A stretch of 64,000 bases of DNA from Cyathus striatus (lineage: Eukaryota; Basidiomycota; Agaricomycetes; Agaricales; Nidulariaceae), in contig JAOVFP010000007.1 of assembly GCA_025738555.1 (NCBI GenBank), positions 4,030,001 through 4,094,000 on the forward strand, given 5' to 3'. Of the stretch, positions 5,135-64,000 are shown in pieces (positions within the stretch are counted from its first letter, which is position 1; every line of letters begins with the position of its first letter). Under the pieces are notes generated by a model, which saw only the letters and a program-made list of their open reading frames with translations, was not told the DNA's origin and made no database searches. The position numbers and the translations under genes are program-made.

Positions 5135-7288
5135 ATGGCTGAAAATCAATACAGTGCTCAAGTGTTCTCCGGCGCACAACACGTAAATGCAACGAACGTG
5201 CAGATAACTACTGTTGGCCATGATCAAATCACTGTCCATAATCACAATGATCAAGAAATCTCAGAGAAACTTAAAATATTGCAGCCTATTGACCAGAACT
5301 TGCATTATCCTCCTCCATGCATGGAAGGGACTAGAGTTACAATTCTGAATAAAATTTATAGGTGGCTCAATGATTTTGGTAGGTAGATATATTGGTACAT
5401 TTATAACAGAACTTAAATCAATCACTTTTATAGATGATTCCACTCCAAACATCATGTGGATTACTGGTAGTCCAGGAACAGGGAAATCTGCAATTGCCTC
5501 TACTCTGGTTGAAACACTCAGCTCCAAGGAATGGAAGAGACTAGGTGGCTGCTATTTCTTTAAGAGAGATGACAACACTTTGAGTGATGCAGCTGTAGTT
5601 TGGAGAACAATAGCTGCAGAGTTGGCATCTAAATCAAAGTATTCCTTTGTGAAAGAGAACATTGCAGAATATCTTGATAACAGCTTCAAGCTTGGGGGAA
5701 TTGAATGGCATTTCAAGCACCTGATTGCTGATACACTTACAGCTTGCCATGATAAATTGGTTATGTCCCCTCCTGCTTTTGTTATTGATGCTCTGGATGA
5801 ATGTCAATCTTCAATAAATATTAGGAGAACTTTCAACACTTGGACTGAACTTCCAAAACATTATAAACTGATATTAACAGGCAGACCAGGCTCTGAACCT
5901 GATATTGTTCAAAATCTTCAAAAATGTGTGGTGGTCAAGCTAGAAACTAATCCAAAGCTTGATCCAGAAATTAACAAAAACATATATCAGTTCTTAAAGC
6001 AATCTTTTGAAATTCACAGGGATGAGCTGCAGTTAAATTTTGTTGAAAATGAGTTAAACAAAATGACAGAAAGAGCTGCAGGATTGTTTATATGGGCATC
6101 TACAGCAATGAAGTATATAGGAACAAACACACACTTTACTGAGAATGAACCATCACCAAAGGAGAAGCTTAACCATATTCTCTCTGAAGAGATAGGCAAT
6201 CCAGTTGACACACTCTATCAGCAAATACTTCAAACTTCTTTTGGAACATGGGATGATAATAGGAAAGAAATTGTTAGGCAAGTTTTGGCAGCTATCTATT
6301 TAGCAAAGTCTCCACTACCTAAAGATGAGCTTCAATATTTCATAAAACTTGATTTTGAAATGAACTACCTGGAAAAAGAAATCAAAAGAATATTACATTT
6401 CCTTCAACCAGTTACAACAATAAATGATAACAAAATAGCATTTAATCATCTTTCTTTTGGCAAGTTTCTTATGCAATCACCTGAAATAAACATATTCTCA
6501 ATAAATGATGAAAAGTATATAAAGAGAATGGCTACAGGCAATGAATATCTTTCTTCACAAGATCCACATGACAAATATTTTACTTTGCAAGATCCACATG
6601 ATGAATATTTTTCTCCACAAGGTCCACATGATAAACACCCTTCACAGGATATGAACAATGATCATTCTTCTTCAAATGAACCTGGGGACAACCCAATTCC
6701 ATCCACTGATAGATGGTCAGATGTAGAAGATATTATGTCTGGGAACTTTGGTGGATCAGATGGAATATTAACAAATGCTCATGACTTCAGCATTCATAAT
6801 TCAGCATTCATGGATTACTCAATAAATATACAGGGTATGTAATGTGCACTTCTATAATAAGTATTATTTCTCATTACTTATTAATAGGTGACATAGTAAA
6901 TATGGGTACTGGATACCCACTAATTGCTGGGGGAATGCTGACATATGCTGGGCACTTCACATTCCAACAGTTCTGGCTCAAATGTGTTTCTCAGATTGAA
7001 ACTATCAAATCAAACACAAAATTGCAGATTGGCTTATCAAGGGATGGTGGTGCATTACTTTCTGTAATGTATCATTCCAAAACACATCATATAGTTGAGC
7101 ATTATGGAAGATGTATGGCAGTATCAGATATTTCAACTGGTGGAGACCTGCAGTCATGGCTATTGGAAATGTACTCCAAGAATATCAAGAGCTTGGTATC
7201 ATCTAAGTCTTTGGTGTTGTGGGGGGGGATTATTTTTACTGCCCTTATGCATCATGGTCTCAGTTTCAGGAGATCTCAGGACACATAA
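5135..7288 (+). CDS. NACHT-domain STAND NTPase (fungal NLR-like), three exons
   Basis: Exons 5135-5378, 5434-6834 and 6888-7288; introns of 55 and 53 nt have GTAGGT..TAG and GTATGT..TAG ends, both phase 1, giving 2046 nt (681 aa plus stop). Exon 1 starts MAENQYSAQ and carries the FSGAQHVNATNVQITT-like N-terminal segment often seen in mushroom NACHT proteins, then a conserved PCMEGTR linker. Exon 2 has Walker A GSPGTGKSAIA and Walker B FVIDALDEC, then LILTGRPG and a GLFIWAS motif, all typical of fungal NACHT ATPases that act as nucleotide-switched receptors in nonself or heterokaryon responses. Three QDPHD-type repeats of about 11 residues (around 6557-6650) follow. There are no WD, ankyrin or TPR repeats; exon 3 encodes about 130 residues I do not recognise. 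The gene is open although it has almost no CpG. Role in recognition is inferred from the family. Confidence 0.85.
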
Positions 7289-46950: not shown

Positions 46951-47965
46951 ATTCCTCCTTGGCTTGATATCACTTGACAGATTACGTGGGCGGTGTGGTG
47001 AACTTTACGCGATGTCACAGCGTAAGACTGTCAAATGACGACAAGAATCCCGACGATGAGCTATCATTGGGTAGATGTTAGTATTGAGCTACATTTGTAA
47101 GTATCCAATACCTACCAAGGAGTGTTTCTCTACAACCACTTCAGCGAGCACGAAGTTGATGCGGGTAGACGTGCGAGGTTCGCTTGAGATATCCGTGAAT
47201 CGTAAGCAGACTCCAAGCGTCGGCTGAACGAGAGGTCAGTTTCGCTTTCGGGACCAGCGAGAATGGTTTTTTGAACGTACTGTATGAGTAGGGCATACTA
47301 TCAAGCCTCCTTCGTGAACTTCCGTCCCGGGCCATAATAGCAGTGGGGCACCAATGTGTTATGCTTGTCGATGGCACCGAGAGACAAACGCACATGTGCT
47401 ATACGGTTCGAGCTACTCCTGGGATCCTAGGAGATGCTCGCAAAGTTGTGTAACATGGCACCGCAGTGGGGGATGCGTCTTCGATATCGTTTTCTACGTC
47501 GACTCTTAGTACCACAGTATGATGCAAGCTCAGGAAATGTATGTACTTACCCAGTAGCAATGAACACGATTCGTCCTCAGTAGTCTTCCCCAAGAACCAA
47601 GTGTCTACATTCCCCGACAACCTTCCACTTAGAGCCACGTCAACACGTCCGAAAGCTTAAATTTGAAAACCAGTATCAGCTTTGAGCTCCTCGAGTTCGA
47701 AAGATGGCAGCATTGTCTCTGTAAATTTTTCTTTGAATATTGATATCGACGTTTACAAGGGTCTAGGTGAGTTGTCGGTACCTTCATAATCAAAGACGAA
47801 GAGTGGGGCAGCACAGACTGAAAGAGGACCAAAAGAGAACCGAAAAAGTTGGCCAGTGGACGGGATCATTAGGATGATCATGAGGCGAGAGAGGGTGGAA
47901 GCCAAGTTTTCGCGGGCTGGTGCCCTGGTGAGAACAAGCGCGTACAAGTAGCGCAACATGTCCGG
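46951..47965. repeat. Direct repeat R1, right copy
   Basis: Second copy of 1-1017, same orientation, starting TTGGCTTGATATCACTTGAC and ending AAGTAGCGCAAC. The tRNA-like fragment after the left copy is absent here. R4 (47996-48115) follows almost immediately. Confidence 0.85.
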
Positions 47966-47995
47966 TCTCACTCGAAGGGAACCGAGAGAGAGAGC

Positions 47996-48115
47996 TTAGT
48001 CTTCGACTCCGGCAGGAAGGTGACACGTGACCAACTCTGCTCGTACCACCTTCCTGCTACCGCCAGAAATACCTACCAACCCGGCACGCGCGCTGAAGTC
48101 TCACCGGAATTTTCA
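47996..48115 (+). repeat. Repeat R4, copy 2
   Basis: Matches 41212-41345. It forms the immediate left flank of the DIRS-like element. Confidence 0.75.
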
Positions 48116-48169
48116 TTTCTATCATACTAAACCGCGCCAACATACTAAACATAATAAACATTATATACA

Positions 48170-49854
48170 ATGCAAAGAATGGAGGCAGATCCATCAGGTG
48201 AAATATGCCCAGACTTCAGAGGAGAAATCTTCGAAGACATGTGCAACATGGCCAGGGGGGGAAATGAACAGATGACAGATGAAGAAGCAATAGAAAAACT
48301 GGTAACAACATGGCAGGTGACTCATCAGAGAAAGGTGACAGCATGGGAGGCACAGGTGCAGGCAGAAAACGAAGAGAGGCAGCACTGTCAACTAGAGGAG
48401 GAACCACAATCCCCCCAGCCAGACGAGAACAGGGATGGACAAAGGGAGAACAATGGCAGACAATGGGTGGGTAGCAGAGAACCAAGCCCATGAGCAGATG
48501 GTAGACAGAGGCATAGGCATGACGAAGAAGAGGAAAGCAGACCGAAAAAAGTAAAACCTTTCATCTTTGATGCAAATGTAGGAATAGAGACTATGCCATT
48601 GACTAGACCAGCTCAATATGCTATAACCAAACTAAAGGATTGAGCATATGTCGAGATAGATTACTTCACACCACGCAGGTGCAGCTTAGCAAAACACGAG
48701 AAATCCATGAGTTCAGCAGACACCCTAGGCTTCACAACAGGTGCAAATGGGACAATTGCACTCCAACCACTATCAGCAATGAACCCCCTGAAGAATATAC
48801 GTCAGGACATAGAGTTGTCATGGAGCGAGGTAAACAAGGCATGACATGCCATGTCAAGACACATGGTGGAAATAGGGGCACCAGTATGGCCAAAACATAT
48901 AATACAGGCATTTTCAGACTTTTTTGGGGTTTTAGATGCACACCCCATATGAGAACAAGAATACAGAGACAAAACAATTGTGAAATATCAAGCCATAGTC
49001 AGGAGAGAGTGGCATGATTGGATGGAATTAGGCCAGGGCATGAACCTGGGCATAGTCAATAACATCCTGCTACAGCAGATCCGACAAGACATCATAATAC
49101 AGAATGGAGCAGACAGAGCAAGAGAGGTCAGTACCACTCCATAATACAAAAGAAAGAAAACAATACTGACCTATGAATTCTGATCCCTTTTTTTCCTTTT
49201 TACAAATGCACACAAATGGCAATTCAATACACCTAATATGACATGCCATATGCCACTGCCATTGCCATTGCCATATAAATACACCATTTGCCATGTGGGT
49301 ATCAACATGAATTGTACACCCCTCACCACTGGATAAATGGCACAGTTGAATGCGATGGTGATGCAGGCATTGCAAATGCTATTGGAAATGCCAAGGAAAA
49401 GGAGGTATGACCAGTCACACTCACGATCTCCAAAAAGAGCAAGGATAACATCAGACTGACATGGCCAACAACAACAGAGCATGTCGCCATCCCCCAAAGA
49501 TCAGACACCCAAAACCAACAAGTTTTTTCAGAAAGGCGCAGCGAAACCACAGAGCATCACCACTTGCGCCATGTGCCTGGGACGACGCAAACATGAGTTC
49601 TCCAAGTGCGACAAATGACAACTATGGGATGGCTTCACCAAAGCATGGGCAATACATGGAGAGAACAGAAAGCTCACCAAACCCAATGGCGACAGCATAT
49701 GCTTCCAATGGCAAATGCCAACAGGATGCCTTGACACAACACACCCAGACCGACACTGCTGCTCAGGGTGTGGGAACACTGACCATGGTGCTCAGAAATG
49801 TCCTCGAGCAGAGAAGTTATAAACCACTTACACCATACAAAGTTGAGAAGTGGG
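48170..49854 (+). pseudogene. DIRS-like element, Gag region (decayed)
   Basis: Starts MQRMEADPSGEICPDFRGE and continues through an acidic, Gln-rich stretch to a Gag-like domain (LTRPAQYAITKLKD, SMSSADTLGFTTGANGTI, WHDWMELGQGMNLGIVNN). A probable intron from GTCAGT at about 49128 leads to EMPRKRRYDQSHSRSPKRAR and then two Cys/His motifs, CAMCLGRRKHEFSKC and the zinc knuckle CSGCGNTDHGAQKC. In-frame stops checked here are TGA (48641, 48842, 48950, 49457, 49616). Frame changes occur near 49820. The region leads into PLTPYKVEKW, the start of the RT module, where copia copy 1 is inserted at 49855. Family assignment rests on the RT/RNase H that follows in the displaced parts. Confidence 0.7.
49850..49854 (+). 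other. Target-site duplication GTGGG (left partner)
   Basis: The GTGGG directly before the LTR of copy 1 matches CCCAC at 55999-56003, which is GTGGG on the strand of copy 2 right after its 3' LTR. The pair therefore flanks different copies. Confidence 0.85.
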
Positions 49855-50190
49855 TGTTGGATCACGGAGGGTTGCTTATGCAATCCGTGCGCTTTTGATG
49901 CGCCGTGCCGACAAGACGGAATGCCGTCTCTCCCTGCCATTGACTTGATATGATTCCGTACTTACAAATTTTCGATCTCTCTTAGTATTTAAGTAGATTA
50001 CCAAGCAGTTTTCTGCTCTCCTCAGTCGTCTCTCATCTATTGCGAGAACTGAGGTGAGCAGGTTCATACTATATTACTTTACTATTACTTATATATTACC
50101 TACTATAGTGTTCTATTGTATAGGTAATATATTGTTAGTCGTCTCTCATCTATTGCGAGAACTGAGTGTTCTATTGTATAGACTCTTATA
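49855..50190 (+). repeat. 5' LTR of copia copy 1
   Basis: Begins TGTTGGATCACGG and ends GACTCTTATA. It contains TCGTCTCTCATCTATTGCGA twice, each framed by CTCAGT/ACTGAG-type ends, and a TTAAGTAGATTACC promoter-like segment. Confidence 0.95.
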
Positions 50191-50257
50191 GGTTATGGGC
50201 CCCGCCCCTGCCAATTGAACTGCAATTATTGAATACACGAAACATCTTTTATTCGAC

Positions 50258-53200
50258 ATGTCGAATGCAACTAGCAACGCAGGCCTCGTTAATTTCTCTC
50301 AGGCTGTCGACAGACTTGACAGTTCAGGAGAGAACTGGGTCATGTTTGAGACTCGTTTCGAAGGAGCTATGAGAGCTCAGAAAGTGTGGAAGCACTTTAC
50401 TGGGCAAGCCGTAAAACCGAAGGACGATTCCTCAGAGCTTGAGGCATGGCAGGAGAAGGAGGACTTGGCGTCCCACCTGTTGATGCAAAAGCTTCCCGAC
50501 TCTATACTCGCGAAGTATTTGTCGAAACCTTCTGTGGCTCAGAAGTGGTCAGGGATTGTGTCGGAATTCACGAGCAAGTCCATGCTGATGCGGAATAACC
50601 TTCGAATGAAGTTTCTGGCCTTGCGCTATCGGGACGGAGCAAACTTACACGACGAGTTTGATAGAGTAAATATGGAGTATGAGAAGCTGAAGGCTTTAGG
50701 AATTACGGTTACAGACGATGAATACCGGAGTCTCATTATTAATTTCCTAGAGCCACTACCAGACTTATCCACCTACATTTCCCAGATAGACGCTAATGTG
50801 CGAGCCATCATTGCGACAATTGAGGGCACGATTGGTCAAGAATTAAGCAATATTATTGCCCCCAGTACTTCGGACTCGACAACCACTACAGCTACATCTA
50901 CTACGGCAACTACCTCTATGTCTTCACCCTCCCCGGATACCAAGTCACCAACCAAGCATCTCGCTACACAACTCAAGCCAGACTACATGGTACACCTGGT
51001 TCTCCAGGAGTGGGACCGAGTGTATGGTGACAAGAAGCAAGAAGCAAAAGGGCGTCAGGAAGGCGAAGGACTCAAATACTTCAGACTCATCAGGAGTTGC
51101 CGCGTATAGTACTATGTCGAGTGAGAAGCCCGGTTCATGTTCAGGTGGAGGTCATCGACGAAAGGATAATCAGCGGAAAGGATCACGTGCGACAGGCGAA
51201 TGTTGGAATTGTGGAGGCCGCGGACACAAAAAGGACCAGTGTCCCTCCCCGAAGAAGGATGACGGAAAGGATGGGCGAGATGGTAACACATCAAAACCCC
51301 GATCCAAATCCTCCTCCGGTGGAAACAATGGTTCAGCGTCCACTGCTGCTAGCCTGGATGAGATCGCCGGCGCGTGGACAGTTTTCTATACTGATGACAT
51401 CGTCCTGCAAAATGGTGGAAGTCTAGATGACGCTATGGATAGGACTGGTACACTGCCGCACACAGAGCACGTTGAGGACGTGTGGGATGAAGATATGCCC
51501 CCTCTAGTTGAGTTGTCGGAGGACGAATGCAACGACAATGACGAAGGAGGGGGAGCAGCTGGAGGAATAGACCCATTTCCCGAGACAATTAGGATGTCGG
51601 ATAAGGCATTAGATTTGGTCGCTGTTGCTGCTGCCGGAACAAAGGTAGACCCATGTGACTTATACGACTCGGGGGCTTCGCACCATATGTCCCCATTCCG
51701 AGAAGATTTCATTAGCTTCAAGTCTATCGTCCCACGCTCATTATCCACTGCCAACCAGCAACTTTTCTCTGCTGAAGGGATTGGGGATGTTATTTTGTCA
51801 GTCCCAAATGGCCAGGACAAGGTAAAAATACGACTCACAGATGTGCTTTACACACCGTCACTTGGTTTTTGCCTTGTATCGATTGGCAAGATTGATGATG
51901 CTGGTTACTATACCACCTTTGGCGGCGGGACATGCGAATTCCGGCACAGTAGAGCGGGTGATGTGATAGGGAGTGTCACGAAGACACGAGGATTGTACAT
52001 TGTACCTCGCGGAGGACACGCAGCGGCAGCAATAGACTCCCAGGTAACAAAGATGTCGATCATGGAATTACATAGGAGGATGGGGCACATCGCTCCCCGA
52101 GCGGCACGAGAGCTTGTAACGAAGGGCTTGATTAGTGGTATAGAAATCACCAACTCGGATGAGCCCTTACAGTGCGACATTTGTATCCAGGCTAAGGCTT
52201 CACGTAAGCCCGTCTCGAAGGAATGTGCTGGGCCACAAGCTACCTCGTTTGGAGAAGAAGTTCATTCGGATATTTGGGGGCCAGCGGATACTGAAACTTT
52301 GGGTCATCGTCGATATTTCATCAGTTTCACTGATGATTACTCACGCTGGACAACAATATATCTTCTCCGTACAAAAGATGAGGCTTTTACTTCGTTCAAA
52401 AGCTTCAAGGCCTGGGTTGATACACATTTGCAGGCCCACGTTACATGTTTACGCTCTGATCGAGGTGGTGAATATATGTCAGATGAGTTTCGTCAGTACC
52501 TGGACCAACATGGGATTCAGCAAAAACTTACTGTCCACGATACCCCTGAGGAGAATGGAGTCTCCGAGCGCCTGAATCGCACATTGCTCGAGAAGGTCCG
52601 CGCCATGTTACTAACGGCCACCCTTCCTTCCTTCTTGTGGGGAGAAGCACTGTTGCACGCGGTCTTCTTGAAGAACCGTACGTCGACAAAGGCCCTGAGT
52701 GGTAGGACACCCTATGAAGTGGTCAACAATAAGGTACCATACCTTGGAAACTTGCCACTGTGGGGGAGTAAAGTGTGGGTTCACGATCCGGATGGCGGAA
52801 AGATTCGTACTCGTGCACGCGAAGGACGATGGGTTGGATATGATTTGCATAGCAATGGGCATCGCGTATATTGGCCGGATAAACGAAGCATAGGGGTGGA
52901 GCGTTCAGTCTTCTTCTCTGAACCTGGAATGCTGGCTGATGCTGCCGAGGACGTTGTGCTCGAGGGGGAGGAGTCGAAGGATGTCGATCCCAACGTTGAA
53001 GAAGGGCTAGGAGAAGAAAAGAGTCAGGGGGAGCATTACACAGATAAGCAAATCGACGTACCTGCTACTCCTTTGAACTCATCACTCCCAGCTATCCCCG
53101 AGGATACTCGTCCACAGCGCAACCGTAAGCCATCACAATATGTGCGCGATATCCAAGCCGGCATCGGAACTGCCACACTGAGAAGATCCCCACGTAACGC

Positions 53201-54887
53201 CCTCCCGAAAGGAATGCAGGTTCCTGGAGGATTTGAAGAAACCAACGAGACACCTGAGTTGGAGGAGGAGATCACTGGGCTTGCGATGGCGGCAGCGATG
53301 GCAGAAGCTCATGGACTAGAGCGCGCTCATTCGCGGAAGCAAAACGAAGCCCAGATTGGCCACGTTGGGAAGAAGCAATGTTCGAGGAACAGGCAGCGCT
53401 TGAGGCACATGGGACTTGGAGACTTGAAGTCCCTCCCGAGGTGCAAACATAGTTGGTTGTCGCTGGGTGTATGCTGTAAAGCGGGATATGACTGGCATTA
53501 TACAGCGATACCGAGCTCGCCTTGTAGCCCAGGGCTTTTCTCAAGTTCCCGGGGTGGATTTCTTCGATACGTATGCCCCCGTCGCCAAGATGGCATCGAT
53601 CCGAGTTATTCTTGCATATGCCGCGCGACTGGACTTTGAAATCCACCAGGTAGACGTGAAAAGTGCATATCTAAACGGAGAATTTGAGCAAAACGAAGTA
53701 ATATACATGAAATTACCGCCCGGACTACACCTTACTTCTGACCCCAACAAAGTCCTCCGTCTCCTACGTCCGCTGTACGGATTGAAGCAGAGTGGCCGTC
53801 ACTGGTACAAGAAGTTGAACTCAATCTTGAAGGGCACCTAGGAATGTCGCAGTGCGAGGTAGACCAGGCCGTCTTCTATCGTGTCGACAAGAAGGGATCT
53901 ATCTTGATCGCAGCACATGTCGACGACCTCACCATTGCCACGTCGAAGCCCGTCTTGATGGAGGAAGTAAAGGGAGCATTGCGAAAGGAAGTCGAGATCT
54001 CTGATATGGGTGAGATACATTGGATTCTAGGCTTTGCAGTGCATCGAAACCGTGAAGAACGTACCTTATCCCTGTCCCAGAAGGCATACATCGACTCCAT
54101 CCTCGAACGCTTTGGATTCACGAATGCAAGGCCACGAGCTATGCCGATGAGTCCCGGCCTACGATTATCGAAGTCGCAGTGTCCTCAAACTGCAGAGGAG
54201 TTTGCTCGTATGAAGAATAAGCCGTATCGAGAAGCTGTTGGTTCCCTTCAGTATTTATCGCTGGGAACAAGACCGGACATCACTTATGCTGTCGGCCAAC
54301 TCGCGAGCTTCAACGAGAATCCAGGTCCTGCACATTGGGATGCAGTAGCAGCAGTCTATGCCTATCTTGCGGGAACGAGGGAGTATGAACTCACCTATGG
54401 ACACAAGTCGTTGGATCTTGAAGGATTCGGTGACGCGGATGGGAGCAACTTGGAACATAGGAGGGCAGTCTCTGGGTATGCGTTCTTGATAGATGGGGGA
54501 GCAGTCTCGTGGAGCTCGAAGAGACAGGACCTCATTGCGCTGTCAACAACGGAAGCCGAGTATGTGGCAGCTACCCACGCTGCCAAGGAAGCACTATGGC
54601 TTCGCACTTTGATTGGACAGCTCTTCGGAAGCATCCTAGGACCTACAACACTTTACGGCGATAATCAGTCTGCTATCGCACTCACCAAAGACCAGCAATA
54701 TCATGCACGAACAAAGCACATTGACATTCGTTTCCATTTCATTCGCTGGATAGTAGACGAAGGCAAGATCAAGTTAGTATACTGTCCAACGGATGATATG
54801 GTGGCCGATACCTTAACCAAGGCGCTTCCGAGTGCCAAGGTAAAGCATTTCGCGACGGAACTAGGACTTACGACGCGCAAGGATTGA
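50258..54887 (+). CDS. Copia gag-pol, copy 1 (frameshifted)
   Basis: Gag starts MSNATSNAGLVNFSQAVD (50258). Domains in order: copia-type Gag; zinc knuckle CWNCGGRGHKKDQC (51200-51241); aspartic protease DLYDSGASHH (about 51657); GAG-pre-integrase HRRMGHI..CDIC (52068-52180); integrase core (HSDIWGP, SDRGGEY, EENGVSERLNRT); RT (YRARLVAQGFSQVPGVDFFD, YGLKQSG, HVDDLTIAT); RNase H (ALSTTEAEYVA, YGDNQSAIAL). Compared with copy 2 the frame is broken by a 7-bp duplication near 51035 and by single-base losses near 53322, 53436 and 53832. The protein is otherwise colinear and complete. It would direct cytoplasmic reverse transcription and integration if the breaks are sequencing errors. Confidence 0.95.
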
Positions 54888-54893
54888 GGGGAG
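54886..54893 (+). promoter_or_regulatory. Polypurine tract, copy 1
   Basis: GAGGGGAG immediately precedes the 3' LTR; copy 2 has one more G in the run. This is the expected primer for plus-strand DNA synthesis. Confidence 0.8.
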
Positions 54894-55229
54894 TGTTGGA
54901 TCACGGAGGGTTGCTTATGCAATCCGTGCGCTTTTGATGCGCCGTGCCGACAAGACAGAATGCCGTCTCTCCCTGCCATTGACTTGATATGATTCCGTAC
55001 TTACAAATTTTCGATCTCTCTTAGTATTTAAGTAGATTACCAAGCAGTTTTCTGCTCTCCTCAGTCGTCTCTCATCTATTGCGAGAACTGAGGTGAGCAG
55101 GTTCATACTATATTACTTTACTATTACTTATATATTACCTACTATAGTGTTCTATTGTATAGGTAATATATTGTTAGTCGTCTCTCATCTATTGCGAGAA
55201 CTGAGTGTTCTATTGTATAGACTCTTATA
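54894..55229 (+). repeat. 3' LTR of copia copy 1
   Basis: 336 bp, identical to the 5' LTR except G to A at 54957. Followed by CATCG (55230-55234), not by the GTGGG found on the other side. Confidence 0.95.
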
Positions 55230-55234
55230 CATCG
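55230..55234 (+). other. Target-site duplication CATCG (left partner)
   Basis: Pairs with CGATG at 61375-61379, its reverse complement, beyond the far end of copy 2. Confidence 0.85.
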
Positions 55235-55998
55235 CTCCTGAGTTTGTCCTCTGCTCTCTTCGATTTCTTTTCTCCATTGCTCTCGCTGTTTGTTGTAATC
55301 TTTAAGGTGCTCTCGCAATATTCGTATGAAAATGTGATCATCCACCCATCATGATGCTGGGCCAATACCACTATATCTAACAATTTCCAGAGCAGCATCT
55401 GCTGCCTCACCATATGCTCCCCCAGCGGAGGTGATACCGAAATTATTGTTGGTGTTAATTGCATAACTGTCATCCCCTTTGAGTTTGACCACAAGTCCAG
55501 GCCACTGGCTTGGGTGTGCTGGTATTGTTCTGTAAGCTTCTGCCACGTCTCTGATTGATGCTTGTGATCCAGGGGGAAGTCTTGACACCAGTAGGCATAT
55601 TGTTGAAAACGTACCCCATGTACAGGGAAAATTTTCTGCCTTAATGTGAGCATTAATGGACTCCACTCTGTTGTCTGGTTTGTGTGGGAAAGAGAAATTG
55701 TGTATTGCTCGAAATTGCCCCACTGGTCCAGTTTTTGGAATGAGTGATACTGGAGATGACTGGAATGGCCCAATGAGTTCTTCTGTTTGACATCGTGAGA
55801 GCGGTCCCAGGTATCTTCCACTTCTGAATTCCTTCTCAATGATATCCATGTATGCCGCATCATATTGATTGATTGATTTGTGATTTGATGGTGTGTATGT
55901 TTTGGCAATAGCAGGTATGCCAAACTGAAAACCCCAATGTAAACCTTCAACCACCCTCTCATACCTTTCCTCCAGTCCAAATGCCTGTAGTTTCTCCT
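55235..55998 (-). pseudogene. DIRS-like RT segment, inverted
   Basis: On the minus strand the frame 55349-55954 encodes VEGLHWGFQFGIPAIAKTYT, ELIGPFQSSPVSLIPKTGPV, CTWGTFSTICLLVSRLPPGS and RT motif A IRDVAEAYRTIPAHPSQWPG, then NNFGITSAGGAYG. After an in-frame TGA, motif C WVDDHIF (55331-55351) and an acidic-basic stretch follow. It is the missing middle of the element whose Gag lies at 48.2-49.85 kb and whose later RT/RNase H lies at 61.4-62.4 kb. Flipping it restores colinearity at both junctions without loss or gain of bases apart from the target duplications. Confidence 0.85.
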
Positions 55999-56003
55999 CC
56001 CAC
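55999..56003 (-). other. Target-site duplication CCCAC (GTGGG on minus)
   Basis: Partner of 49850-49854. See the inversion finding. Confidence 0.85.
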
Positions 56004-56339
56004 TATAAGAGTCTATACAATAGAACACTCAGTTCTCGCAATAGATGAGAGACGACTAACAATATATTACCTATACAATAGAACACTATAGTAGGTAATA
56101 TATAAGTAATAGTAAAGTAATATAGTATGAACCTGCTCACCTCAGTTCTCGCAATAGATGAGAGACGACTGAGGAGAGCAGAAAACTGCTTGGTAATCTA
56201 CTTAAATACTAAGAGAGATCGAAAATTTGTAAGTACGGAATCATATCAAGTCAATGGCAGGGAGAGACGGCATTCCGTCTTGTCGGCACGGCGCATCAAA
56301 AGCGCACGGATTGCATAAGCAACCCTCCGTGATCCAACA
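56004..56339 (-). repeat. 3' LTR of copia copy 2
   Basis: 336 bp, begins TATAAGAGTC and ends CCGTGATCCAACA on the plus strand. Confidence 0.95.
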
Positions 56340-56346
56340 CTCCCCC

Positions 56347-59300
56347 TCAATCCTTGCGCGTCGTAAGTCCTAGTTCCGTCGCGAAATGCTTTACCTTGGC
56401 ACTCGGAAGCGCCTTGGTTAAGGTATCGGCCACCATATCATCCGTTGGACAGTATACTAACTTGATCTTGCCTTCGTCTACTATCCAGCGAATGAAATGG
56501 AAACGAATGTCAATGTGCTTTGTTCGTGCATGATATTGCTGGTCTTTGGTGAGTGCGATAGCAGACTGATTATCGCCGTAAAGTGTTGTAGGTCCTAGGA
56601 TGCTTCCGAAGAGCTGTCCAATCAAAGTGCGAAGCCATAGTGCTTCCTTGGCAGCGTGGGTAGCTGCCACATACTCGGCTTCCGTTGTTGACAGCGCAAT
56701 GAGGTCCTGTCTCTTCGAGCTCCACGAGACTGCTCCCCCATCTATCAAGAACGCATACCCAGAGACTGCCCTCCTATGTTCCAAGTTGCTCCCATCCGCG
56801 TCACCGAATCCTTCAAGATCCAACGACTTGTGTCCATAGGTGAGTTCATACTCCCTCGTTCCCGCAAGATAGGCATAGACTGCTGCTACTGCATCCCAAT
56901 GTGCAGGACCTGGATTCTCGTTGAAGCTCGCGAGTTGGCCGACAGCATAAGTGATGTCCGGTCTTGTTCCCAGCGATAAATACTGAAGGGAACCAACAGC
57001 TTCTCGATACGGCTTATTCTTCATACGAGCAAACTCCTCTGCAGTTTGAGGACACTGCGACTTCGATAATCGTAGGCCGGGACTCATCGGCATAGCTCGT
57101 GGCCTTGCATTCGTGAATCCAAAGCGTTCGAGGATGGAGTCGATGTATGCCTTCTGGGACAGGGATAAGGTACGTTCTTCACGGTTTCGATGCACTGCAA
57201 AGCCTAGAATCCAATGTATCTCACCCATATCAGAGATCTCGACTTCCTTTCGCAATGCTCCCTTTACTTCCTCCATCAAGACGGGCTTCGACGTGGCAAT
57301 GGTGAGGTCGTCGACATGTGCTGCGATCAAGATAGATCCCTTCTTGTCGACACGATAGAAGACGGCCTGGTCTACCTCGCACTGCGACATTCCTAGGTGC
57401 CCCTTCAAGATTGAGTTCAACTTCTTGTACCAGTGACGGCCACTCTGCTTCAATCCGTACAGCGGACGTAGGAGACGGAGGACTTTGTTGGGGTCAGAAG
57501 TAAGGTGTAGTCCGGGCGGTAATTTCATGTATATTACTTCGTTTTGCTCAAATTCTCCGTTTAGATATGCACTTTTCACGTCTACCTGGTGGATTTCAAA
57601 GTCCAGTCGCGCGGCATATGCAAGAATAACTCGGATCGATGCCATCTTGGCGACGGGGGCATACGTATCGAAGAAATCCACCCCGGGAACTTGAGAAAAG
57701 CCCTGGGCTACAAGGCGAGCTCGGTATCGCTGTATAATGCCAGTCATATCCCGCTTTACAGCATACACCCAGCGACAACCAACTATGTTTGCACCTCGGG
57801 GAGGGACTTCAAGTCTCCAAGTCCCATGTGCCTCAAGCGCTGCCTGTTCCTCGAACATTGCTTCTTCCCAACGTGGCCAATCTGGGCTTCGTTTTGCTTC
57901 CGCGAATGAGCGCGGCTCTAGTCCATGAGCTTCTGCCATCGCTGCCGCCATCGCAAGCCCAGTGATCTCCTCCTCCAACTCAGGTGTCTCGTTGGTTTCT
58001 TCAAATCCTCCAGGAACCTGCATTCCTTTCGGGAGGGCGTTACGTGGGGATCTTCTCAGTGTGGCAGTTCCGATGCCGGCTTGGATATCGCGCACATATT
58101 GTGATGGCTTACGGTTGCGCTGTGGACGAGTATCCTCGGGGATAGCTGGGAGTGATGAGTTCAAAGGAGTAGCAGGTACGTCGATTTGCTTATCTGTGTA
58201 ATGCTCCCCCTGACTCTTTTCTTCTCCTAGCCCTTCTTCAACGTTGGGATCGACATCCTTCGACTCCTCCCCCTCGAGCACAACGTCCTCGGCAGCATCA
58301 GCCAGCATTCCAGGTTCAGAGAAGAAGACTGAACGCTCCACCCCTATGCTTCGTTTATCCGGCCAATATACGCGATGCCCATTGCTATGCAAATCATATC
58401 CAACCCATCGTCCTTCGCGTGCACGAGTACGAATCTTTCCGCCATCCGGATCGTGAACCCACACTTTACTCCCCCACAGTGGCAAGTTTCCAAGGTATGG
58501 TACCTTATTGTTGACCACTTCATAGGGTGTCCTACCACTCAGGGCCTTTGTCGACGTACGGTTCTTCAAGAAGACCGCGTGCAACAGTGCTTCTCCCCAC
58601 AAGAAGGAAGGAAGGGTGGCCGTTAGTAACATGGCGCGGACCTTCTCGAGCAATGTGCGATTCAGGCGCTCGGAGACTCCATTCTCCTCAGGGGTATCGT
58701 GGACAGTAAGTTTTTGCTGAATCCCATGTTGGTCCAGGTACTGACGAAACTCATCTGACATATATTCACCACCTCGATCAGAGCGTAAACATGTAACGTG
58801 GGCCTGCAAATGTGTATCAACCCAGGCCTTGAAGCTTTTGAACGAAGTAAAAGCCTCATCTTTTGTACGGAGAAGATATATTGTTGTCCAGCGTGAGTAA
58901 TCATCAGTGAAACTGATGAAATATCGACGATGACCCAAAGTTTCAGTATCCGCTGGCCCCCAAATATCCGAATGAACTTCTTCTCCAAACGAGGTAGCTT
59001 GTGGCCCAGCACATTCCTTCGAGACGGGCTTACGTGAAGCCTTAGCCTGGATACAAATGTCGCACTGTAAGGGCTCATCCGAGTTGGTGATTTCTATACC
59101 ACTAATCAAGCCCTTCGTTACAAGCTCTCGTGCCGCTCGGGGAGCGATGTGCCCCATCCTCCTATGTAATTCCATGATCGACATCTTTGTTACCTGGGAG
59201 TCTATTGCTGCCGCTGCGTGTCCTCCGCGAGGTACAATGTACAATCCTCGTGTCTTCGTGACACTCCCTATCACATCACCCGCTCTACTGTGCCGGAATT

Positions 59301-60971
59301 CGCATGTCCCGCCGCCAAAGGTGGTATAGTAACCAGCATCATCAATCTTGCCAATCGATACAAGGCAAAAACCAAGTGACGGTGTGTAAAGCACATCTGT
59401 GAGTCGTATTTTTACCTTGTCCTGGCCATTTGGGACTGACAAAATAACATCCCCAATCCCTTCAGCAGAGAAAAGTTGCTGGTTGGCAGTGGATAATGAG
59501 CGTGGGACGATAGACTTGAAGCTAATGAAATCTTCTCGGAATGGGGACATATGGTGCGAAGCCCCGAGTCGTATAAGTCACATGGGTCTACCTTTGTTCC
59601 GGCAGCAGCAACAGCGACCAAATCTAATGCCTTATCCGACATCCTAATTGTCTCGGGAAATGGGTCTATTCCTCCAGCTGCTCCCCCTCCTTCGTCATTG
59701 TCGTTGCATTCGTCCTCCGACAACTCAACTAGAGGGGGCATATCTTCATCCCACACGTCCTCAACGTGCTCTGTGTGCGGCAGTGTACCAGTCCTATCCA
59801 TAGCGTCATCTAGACTTCCACCATTTTGCAGGACGATGTCATCAGTATAGAAAACTGTCCACGCGCCGGCGATCTCATCCAGGCTAGCAGCAGTGGACGC
59901 TGAACCATTGTTTCCACCGGAGGAGGATTTGGATCGGGGTTTTGATGTGTTACCATCTCGCCCATCCTTTCCGTCATCCTTCTTCGGGGAGGGACACTGG
60001 TCCTTTTTGTGTCCGCGGCCTCCACAATTCCAACATTCGCCTGTCGCACGTGATCCTTTCCGCTGATTATCCTTTCGTCGATGACCTCCACCTGAACATG
60101 AACCGGGCTTCTCACTCGACATAGTACTATACGCGGCAACTCCTGATGAGTCTGAAGTATTTGAGTCCTTCGCCTTCCTGACGCCCTTTTGCTTCTTGTC
60201 ACCATACACTCGGTCCCACTCCTGGAGAACCAGGTGTACCATGTAGTCTGGCTTGAGTTGTGTAGCGAGATGCTTGGTTGGTGACTTGGTATCCGGGGAG
60301 GGTGAAGACATAGAGGTAGTTGCCGTAGTAGATGTAGCTGTAGTGGTTGTCGAGTCCGAAGTACTGGGGGCAATAATATTGCTTAATTCTTGACCAATCG
60401 TGCCCTCAATTGTCGCAATGATGGCTCGCACATTAGCGTCTATCTGGGAAATGTAGGTGGATAAGTCTGGTAGTGGCTCTAGGAAATTAATAATGAGACT
60501 CCGGTATTCATCGTCTGTAACCGTAATTCCTAAAGCCTTCAGCTTCTCATACTCCATATTTACTCTATCAAACTCGTCGTGTAAGTTTGCTCCGTCCCGA
60601 TAGCGCAAGGCCAGAAACTTCATTCGAAGGTTATTCCGCATCAGCATGGACTTGCTCGTGAATTCCGACACAATCCCTGACCACTTCTGAGCCACAGAAG
60701 GTTTCGACAAATACTTCGCGAGTATAGAGTCGGGAAGCTTTTGCATCAACAGGTGGGACGCCAAGTCCTCCTTCTCCTGCCATGCCTCAAGCTCTGAGGA
60801 ATCGTCCTTCGGTTTTACGGCTTGCCCAGTAAAGTGCTTCCACACTTTCTGAGCTCTCATAGCTCCTTCGAAACGAGTCTCAAACATGACCCAGTTCTCT
60901 CCTGAACTGTCAAGTCTGTCGACAGCCTGAGAGAAATTAACGAGGCCTGCGTTGCTAGTTGCATTCGACAT
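56347..60971 (-). CDS. Copia gag-pol, copy 2 (one frame break)
   Basis: Two overlapping frames: 59412-60971 (Gag, zinc knuckle, up to the protease site) and 56347-59550 (1067 codons from just after the protease active site through integrase, RT and RNase H to the stop). The only break is a run of four C (plus strand 59562-59565) where copy 1 has five G on its strand, exactly in the DSGAS protease motif. This could be a run-length sequencing error. Apart from it the polyprotein is complete (about 1540 residues), in the usual size range for copia elements, and has all catalytic motifs listed for copy 1. Confidence 0.95.
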
Positions 60972-61038
60972 GTCGAATAAAAGATGTTTCGTGTATTCAA
61001 TAATTGCAGTTCAATTGGCAGGGGCGGGGCCCATAACC

Positions 61039-61374
61039 TATAAGAGTCTATACAATAGAACACTCAGTTCTCGCAATAGATGAGAGACGACTAACAATAT
61101 ATTACCTATACAATAGAACACTATAGTAGGTAATATATAAGTAATAGTAAAGTAATATAGTATGAACCTGCTCACCTCAGTTCTCGCAATAGATGAGAGA
61201 CGACTGAGGAGAGCAGAAAACTGCTTGGTAATCTACTTAAATACTAAGAGAGATCGAAAATTTGTAAGTACGGAATCATATCAAGTCAATGGCAGGGAGA
61301 GACGGCATTCCGTCTTGTCGGCACGGCGCATCAAAAGCGCACGGATTGCATAAGCAACCCTCCGTGATCCAACA
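61039..61374 (-). repeat. 5' LTR of copia copy 2
   Basis: 336 bp, same as the 3' LTR of this copy by eye. GGTTATGGGCCC (read on minus) follows, as in copy 1. Confidence 0.95.
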
Positions 61375-61379
61375 CGATG
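61375..61379 (+). other. Target-site duplication CGATG
   Basis: Reverse complement of 55230-55234 and the right flank of copy 2. Confidence 0.85.
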
Positions 61380-62640
61380 TTGAATATGGTACAGAGGCAA
61401 AGAGATGCCAGACAGGTGACCAGAAGAATATGACGAAGATATGCAAGCTGAGCTCAAAGATCTGGCCTGGGAAAAGAGACGAGCAAGCTTACAGGAAGAA
61501 CCATATTGTTACAATGATGCAGACATTGATGAGCTATCGGAACAACTGGGTACTGTATGGGAAAGCACTAAAACTGTTCTTTTTCAGTCAGTGGTACCTT
61601 TTCTTGGTTTTAGTTGGGATCTGGAGCACAAAACTGTTTCTCTACTTGAAGCTAAATGCAACAAGTATTTGCAAGCAATTACGGAGTGGGGAAATAGAAA
61701 GCGACACACTCTCAAAGAAGTTCAAAAGTTATATGGAAAACTGCTCCATGTTACTCTCATTATTCCAAGGGGGAGAGCATACCTCACCAAACTCGAGGCC
61801 ATGTTGGGAACGTACCACAACAATCCTTTCACTCCACACTTTCCACCGAAACACACAAATGAAGATCTTATTTGGTGGGAAAGACAACTCAGAGGACCAA
61901 TGTTGTCATGAGAAATCCCAGCACCAACCTCAACAGAGGACATTGGCACATACTCAGACGCCAGCTCAGACTTTGGGATCGGCATCACTATCGGACAGAA
62001 GTGGAGAGTGTGGAGGTTACACCCCAAATGGCAAACCAATGGGTGAGATATTGGGTGGGCTGAAGCAATTGGCTTCAAACTTCTCATCAACACAATCATA
62101 CATGAGAGACTCATCAAAACGAAGAGAAAGCAAGTCAGGGTACATGGGGACAACACAGGAGTGGTCGAAGGATGGTGGGCAGGAAGAAGCTGAAGCTGGA
62201 GGGTCAATGAAGTCTTCCGACAAATACATGACCTTTGTGAGGAAAACGGCACAACGGTACACACAAGATATGTACCAAGCAAAAATAACCCAGCAGATGA
62301 CCCATCAAGGGGCATCTACTCAGCATCAGCAAACCTCCTACCAAAATCCTCATTCCAGACACTTTACAGCCATATGTGTTCAACTTTGATGACCCAAGTA
62401 CAAAGGATTGGCCTAGACCCTACCCGCTACAAAAGCCAGAAAAGCAAAACAGGCAAAATGGACAGTACCACCACTTCAACGAAAGACAACACGAAGAATT
62501 ATGGGCAGCAGAACACAATACATAGAAAGAATACAACTCAACAAGAATGGGGACCAGCCCAAGCAAGCCAGCTTCCAGTTAGATGAACTCAAACATCAAA
62601 TAGAGACCGAGCATCAGCAAAGTCTGGGTTTGCTACCCGA
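61380..62640 (+). pseudogene. DIRS-like element, RT thumb and RNase H (decayed)
   Basis: The frame at 61441-61911 gives MQAELKDLAWEKRRASLQEE, VVPFLGFSWDLEHKTVSLLE and QKLYGKLLHVTLIIPRGRAY, the RT connection region. After a TGA (61909) RNase H follows: GTYSDASSDFGIGITIG, DIGWAEAIGF, VHGDNTGVVEGWW and SKNNPADDPSRG. TGA codons again stand where arginine is usual (for example before DIGWAEAIGF at 62044), and there is a frameshift near 62200. I find no tyrosine recombinase downstream, so that module is lost, elsewhere, or unrecognisable. Confidence 0.8.
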
Positions 62641-64000
62641 TGCTACATAGCATTACATAGTACCATAGCACCAAAACAAAGACCCCCCTTTATCAGATAC
62701 TGTATAGACTCCCGCCTATGCTACAGAGTTCTATATAGCTTGTACTGCATGCTATGGGTTGCTATGAGGTGCTAGTGAACATTAAGTGGCATACTATGGA
62801 GCATCATGGAGCCCTCTGAATGCACTGCGAGTTGCTATGGTAGTCATACAGCCGCTAGCGTATTTCGAAAATAATATTGCTTCTTGCTTATGATTTCGCA
62901 AATTCAAATTCCAGATTACACTTAAAAGACAATATACTAGGTACATACACACAAAACATATACAATATAAGTGCGATTTCCCCATCACCAGAATTTTCAG
63001 ACGCCTAATTTCATCACCGAATTTTATCTTCCTTCACACTTCAGCTTACCACCCCTCGCTACAAAATATCACTGACCAACAACCAACGGCATGCATGTAC
63101 TCTCACCACCCGCTCTCACAAACAAAACAAAGTCGAGGTTGAACTCGAACTCGCCGGTCCGCTGTCCTCTTGTCCAGAGCGAGCTGCATGCCAAAGTGGT
63201 GGCGCTTGGTATCTCATTGCTTTGGATTCAGGAGTGGGTTGCGAGAGGAGTATGCGCCTCCAAGTCAATGGCTCCTGACTCCTGAGGCAAGATGTCAAGT
63301 TAGCAGTGTGAAGAGTGGAATGGAAAGGAGAAGGAATAGAGGGAGGTACGAAGAATTAAAGAAAGGAAAAGATGAAGAACAAAGGGGGGAGGAAGGAGGG
63401 GAGTGAAATGGGGGATTAAGGAGTGAAGGGGCAGGGGCAGAAGAAAGGAATGGAGAAGGGGAAGGATATACATCAAGGATAAAATGAAGGAATGAGGGAA
63501 AGCATACATGAAAGAAGGGAATACGTACAATGATATGCTGCCCATGCCCCGCACCATTGGCACATATTGTAATGTCAAGTCGCCCTCACACCAGACTCTT
63601 GATGATACTCCCACTAAATCCGTGCCGCACACGCGATTCCCGCAACTGCAATTGTTACATTCCAAACAGGCATTAGGATCTTCAGGTAGGGCGAAATGAA
63701 GGATGGCATTTAGCCAAGGATGTGACGTGGCGTCGCCTACAGTCTATGCACTGTGTTAGCTACACCATGCTTTTAGTAAAAGAAAGCAGATGAAAACTAA
63801 ACTCACATATTGCTCAGCAGGATGATTGATTGTAGCTGAGAGGGCAAATGTCCAGATACATTGAATGTGAAGACGAAGCTGGCGGTGAGCCGGGCATGGT
63901 GAGGTTGCTATAGGTCCATAGCATAAACTGAAATAATGCGACTTCAGAGTGAGCACATAGATAGTGAGAGGGTTATAGGAGAAGTGAACTCAGAGACTCG
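62641..64000. other. Flank with CATAGC/GCTATG-rich stretch and purine tract
   Basis: 62630-62860 has many GCTATG, CTATGCTAC and CATAGCA motifs, possibly the terminal region of the DIRS-like element. 63300-63500 is purine-rich (GGAAGGGGA). Only short frames; no gene recognised. Confidence 0.4.

Follow-up and report, generated by a model that had tools for sequence, protein, structure and literature searches.

Two opposed copia copies with exchanged target duplications around a reversed host segment in the Cyathus striatus assembly: a probable recombination footprint

The stretch of Cyathus striatus DNA analysed here, 64,000 bp long and referred to as the window (C7:4030001-4094000; coordinates below are window positions unless a contig is named), contains two copia elements that lie in opposite directions within one DIRS-like element. 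Neither copy is bounded by a matching pair of target duplications, and the host segment between them reads backwards with respect to the rest of the host. The question raised by this locus is which event could have produced such an arrangement, and whether the assembled order can be taken as the cellular one.

From left to right, the DIRS-like host is first represented by its left part (47956-49854, plus strand; 96.4% identity to its C1 paralogue, L009), ending in GTGGG, the outer target duplicate of site A (49850-49854, plus strand). This part is followed by copia copy 1 (5375 bp; 49855-55229, plus strand; LTRs at 49855-50190 and 54894-55229), by CATCG, the inner target duplicate of site B (55230-55234, plus strand), and by the middle segment of the host, 764 bp long and inverted, which holds part of its putative reverse transcriptase, lies on the minus strand (55235-55998), and matches C1:125683-126446 at 98%. 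Then come CCCAC, i.e., reversed GTGGG, the inner duplicate of site A (55999-56003, plus strand), copia copy 2 (5371 bp; 56004-61374, minus strand; 5' LTR 61039-61374 and 3' LTR 56004-56339), and CGATG, i.e., reversed CATCG, the outer duplicate of site B (61375-61379, plus strand), with which the right part of the host begins (61375-62613, plus strand; 95.9% identity to L009). In the original prediction the feature was placed at 48170-62640; the locus itself was found there, but its limits have to be redrawn, the host homology to C1 covering 47956-62613.

On the forward strand copy 1 is flanked by GTGGG/CATCG and copy 2 by CCCAC/CGATG. Taken along each element's own direction, the flanks become GTGGG...CATCG for copy 1 and CATCG...GTGGG for copy 2; left and right are mismatched within each copy, and the 5-bp flanks are exact between the copies, crosswise, at both sites. 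Both the mismatch within each copy and the crosswise pairing had been described beforehand and are borne out base by base. A random pair of 5-mers from the host element matches with a probability of 0.00176, and both crosswise pairs would match by chance at about 3e-6.

The usual behaviour of related elements was assessed on 30 LTR loci among the best 40 of 95 candidates. Four of these loci are the window's own, 10 with an end that could not be located were omitted, and the remaining 16 were resolved into 11 units bounded on either side, of which 5 have paired LTRs and 6 were taken as solo, since no element interior adjoins. Exact 5-bp duplications were found in 8/11 related units, while one unit matched at 4/5 positions, with a CG/CA difference, and two at only 3/5. 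Among the matches listed, both other insertions of the same copia family carry a 5-bp duplication: the full-length copy C4:5213031-5218402 has CATCA and the solo LTR C9:928951-929288 has GTATA on both sides. Two side observations were made in this set. The related copia element at C6:3071189-3076209 has two LTRs but mismatched flanks (TGGAA/CAGAA) and could be another recombinant, and five LTR loci (L027, L028, L030, L033, and L035) are partial matches with a nearly common left flank, which suggests an LTR fragment carried within another repeat.

The second group of evidence comes from the host. When the left flank, the reverse-complemented middle, and the right flank are joined with single target copies, the product aligns without gaps to the C1 element (1139/1167). 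This paralogue is copia-free and unoccupied at both target sites, and its reading frame of 761 aa spans both of them. According to the gapless alignment and this frame, the earlier claim that the host coding sequence is colinear only if 55235-55998 is flipped holds, and the uninverted arrangement and empty sites, which it was proposed to look for in the genome, were found in paralogues: the order is unflipped in all seven paralogues examined (L002-L008, among 39 other listed matches), at both junctions in six of them and at the right junction only in L008. The matches to the middle segment were the best 40 of 47 candidates, in which L009 is the same locus as L002. The presence of a single target copy per site in the uninverted arrangement is known from the paralogues rather than from an allele of this locus. 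The crossed duplications, the reversed host order, and the unflipped paralogues together make it well supported, as a statement on the assembled sequence, that the 764-bp middle is inverted between two insertion sites.

The LTRs of both inserts are 336 bp long (TGTTGG...CTTATA). In copy 2 the gag (59415-61010, minus strand) matches the Pfam copia gag model PF14223, and in the pol frame (56353-59577, minus strand) the integrase core rve (213-291) precedes RVT_2 (586-832). From the gag, the position of integrase before reverse transcriptase, and the paired LTRs, the two inserts are classified by sequence as Ty1/copia LTR retrotransposons; as assembled, both have interrupted coding frames. The copia pol has its relatives (best 120 of 609), where organisms are named, in mushroom-forming fungi, among them Ganoderma, Sparassis, and Gymnopilus, the exception among those listed being one record labelled as a Chlamydiales metagenome bin. 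The family has at least four insertions in the genome (two in the window, C4, and C9). Targeting of the host element by this family is unsupported, as the flanks of the C4 and C9 insertions, compared over about 1.4 kb or more per side, are unlike the window or C1 host.

The two copies are almost the same. No internal substitution separates them, and their LTRs show a single one; a 7-bp tandem duplication also distinguishes them, as do five one-base differences in the length of G/C runs. These run-length differences are suspected to be consensus errors, since no internal substitution accompanies them. The copies contain 296 and 297 CpGs, with the sole CpG-type difference located in an LTR. In comparison with the C4 copy, the only other full-length one among the matches listed, both show the same 98 substitutions, of which 97 are transitions. 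This common set and the near-zero divergence indicate that the copies are either young and from a single source or homogenised by gene conversion. The C4 copy has neither window copy's state at the differing indels and so phases no difference between them, and dating by LTR divergence is uninformative, three of the four window LTRs being identical and the fourth having a single change.

The best explanation, to which a probability of roughly 70% is assigned, is that two insertions took place and that the opposed copies later recombined homologously. A low-copy Ty1/copia element would have entered, on two occasions, a DIRS-like element that was old and had lost CpGs by decay. The two insertions, about 769 bp from each other and facing opposite ways, would each have duplicated 5 bp, GTGGG at one site and CATCG at the other. 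A crossover between the opposed 5.4-kb copies would then have reversed everything between them, leaving each copy with one target duplicate from each site. The explanation is favoured by the exact crossed duplicates, the normal duplications of 8/11 controls, the gapless empty paralogue, and the unflipped order of 7/7 paralogues, and the crossover is plausible because the opposed arms are nearly identical and offer ample homology. We infer three parts of this history, namely, that the insertions were separate, that the flip came about by a homologous crossover, and that the cell carries the segment in the assembled orientation. With arms this long and near-identical, the segment is probably able to flip back, and both orientations may consequently coexist in one culture.

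Several observations weigh against this account. Two of at least four family members lie within 769 bp, a coincidence of about 9e-5 for independent events under uniform insertion, where the figure is post hoc and takes one family into consideration. Two of the 11 control units likewise have mismatched flanks, and in PMC9879454 four closely studied isolates showed zero recombination between inverted Ty1 elements of the same arm. Chimerism of the copies, which PMC2775673 treats as a mark of recombination, cannot be read here since the copies have no internal substitution. The original statement that two insertions and recombination "predict exactly this" is correct as a prediction, but the pattern is not unique to that history: an assembly flip or a coupled integration would yield an identical sequence.

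The strongest of these competitors, though an unlikely one, is an error of assembly orientation, by which both insertions would be real and uninverted and the 764-bp middle would have been placed backwards between near-identical opposed 5.4-kb repeats. The four LTR-host junctions are identical in either orientation; as a result the orientations cannot be told apart by short reads, by coverage, or by the suggested PCR across the junctions, and only reads longer than one copy discriminate. The five run-length differences in G/C runs, found with no internal substitutions, look like residual consensus error, and a fungal inverted-repeat locus is described in PMC6591007 at which the reference is suspect and only the inverted order was amplified. 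Opposed to this is the continuity of the assembly, since 24 contigs for 107.45 Mb imply long reads, which commonly exceed 6 kb.

A coupled integration is kept as a minority reading and is considered improbable, more so than an assembly error. Here two sister cDNAs with exchanged ends would have joined two nearby sites at once, with the middle inverted meanwhile, and if this were true LTR retrotransposons would invert DNA directly at integration, with no later homologous recombination. According to PMC2775673 the insertion of a hybrid element yields the same duplications, with copies that are identical rather than chimeric. The near identity of the two window copies agrees with this, but recency or gene conversion accounts for it just as well; the closeness of two among at least four family insertions (within 769 bp, about 9e-5 under uniform insertion) agrees too, but that figure is post hoc and allows neither for insertion bias nor for how many families might have been considered. 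The hybrid-element model comes from work on cut-and-paste transposons, and to our knowledge there is no documented case of such an insertion by an LTR retrotransposon.

Chance, i.e., unrelated insertions that lost or never had matching duplicates, finds a parallel in the mismatched flanks of 2/11 related units but is negligibly probable, because both crosswise pairs match (about 3e-6), the inversion of the host segment has exactly these points as its ends, and the gapless empty-site alignment contradicts it. Transposition of a composite unit was also considered and is unsupported: among the matches listed (best 40 of 47 for the middle and best 40 of 95 for the LTR) no other LTR match adjoins a middle-segment match.

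The nature of the host element is defined less sharply. In the C1 paralogue a VDD motif in the RT frame and R, HxxR, and Y-type motifs in a frame of 413 aa were read by eye, which we take as marks of a putative reverse transcriptase and tyrosine recombinase, respectively; the putative recombinase gene of the window host lies outside the window, behind a third insertion, at C7:4094497-4095675 and has 95% identity to C1. Five host proteins gave no Pfam model above cut-off and one sub-threshold match, a PDB search with the host element proteins gave no match above cut-off, a methyltransferase domain was absent from the host by Pfam, and no terminal repeats emerged when positions 2001-8500 of L009 or the host pieces in the window were compared with themselves. 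In view of the Pfam result, the missing methyltransferase domain, and the lack of terminal repeats, the host is best designated as DIRS-like only and not as DIRS1 proper.

Of the CpGs kept in C1, 62 are gone from the window host, against 14 losses in the reverse direction. The stops of host-type elements are mostly TGA, and at two compared places a window TGA stands opposite a C1 CGA, a pattern that fits CpG decay. Recoding of TGA in the host is rejected at the places compared, since TGA is found opposite CGA and the losses are mainly CpG to TpG/CpA.

A third insertion, about 1.9 kb long, cuts the right part of the same host element; it occupies 62614-64000 and continues to about C7:4094490. 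It has TIR-like ends TCAGCAAA (by eye) and a target duplicate of about 6 bp with one CpG-type change, and C15:1710379-1711665 is near-identical to its first 1287 bp. Elsewhere in the window a frame of 497 aa (5349-6839, plus strand) has NPHP3_N and NACHT matches above cut-off; the 0-30 kb region in which it lies is CpG-poor (observed/expected 0.29). For one open reading frame of the window the sole match comes from Cyathus striatus, at 61% over 58% of the query.

In the recombination reading the locus shows, compactly and to the base, an inversion driven by a retrotransposon, and paralogues within this genome record the ancestral order. The near-identical opposed 5.4-kb pair around a marked 764-bp centre would make the frequency of flips countable in cultures by long reads. 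More generally, target duplications expose flips, or assembly errors, that are invisible to short reads.

A literature search, mostly outside subscription papers, gave only the Galileo paper for exchanged target site duplications with a retrotransposon, and in the same mostly non-subscription literature no LTR retrotransposons at inversion breakpoints with target site duplications were found, which hints weakly that such LTR-retrotransposon cases are rare. Three known systems can be compared with the present locus. In Candida albicans, which is fungal too, recombining long inverted repeats flip the segment between them, and the reference orientation is suspected to be wrong at one locus; most of those repeats contain ORFs or are associated with centromeres, and the events are without target duplications, unlike here (PMC6591007). 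PMC9879454 deals with inversion by crossover between inverted Ty1 elements of one chromosome arm; these are LTR retrotransposons of the same Ty1/copia superfamily as the copies described here, but the breaks were induced by Cas9, unlike here; according to the same source inverted-repeat events need reads of at least 10 kb.

The closest parallel is the Galileo inversion 2z3 of Drosophila buzzatii, the footprint of which was attributed to ectopic recombination (PMC2775673). Galileo belongs to the cut-and-paste DNA transposons and makes 7-bp duplications, whereas the window holds an LTR retrotransposon with 5-bp duplicates; 2z3 is a chromosomal, polymorphic inversion, whereas here a 764-bp segment is concerned and its uninverted order is known from paralogues only; and the Galileo copies are demonstrably chimeric, whereas the copia copies are too alike to judge. 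Common to both are opposed copies of one element at two breakpoints, exchanged target duplications, and single target copies in the uninverted state. The kind of event is already known, and on the favoured reading the locus described here is a small, clean LTR-retrotransposon instance of it.
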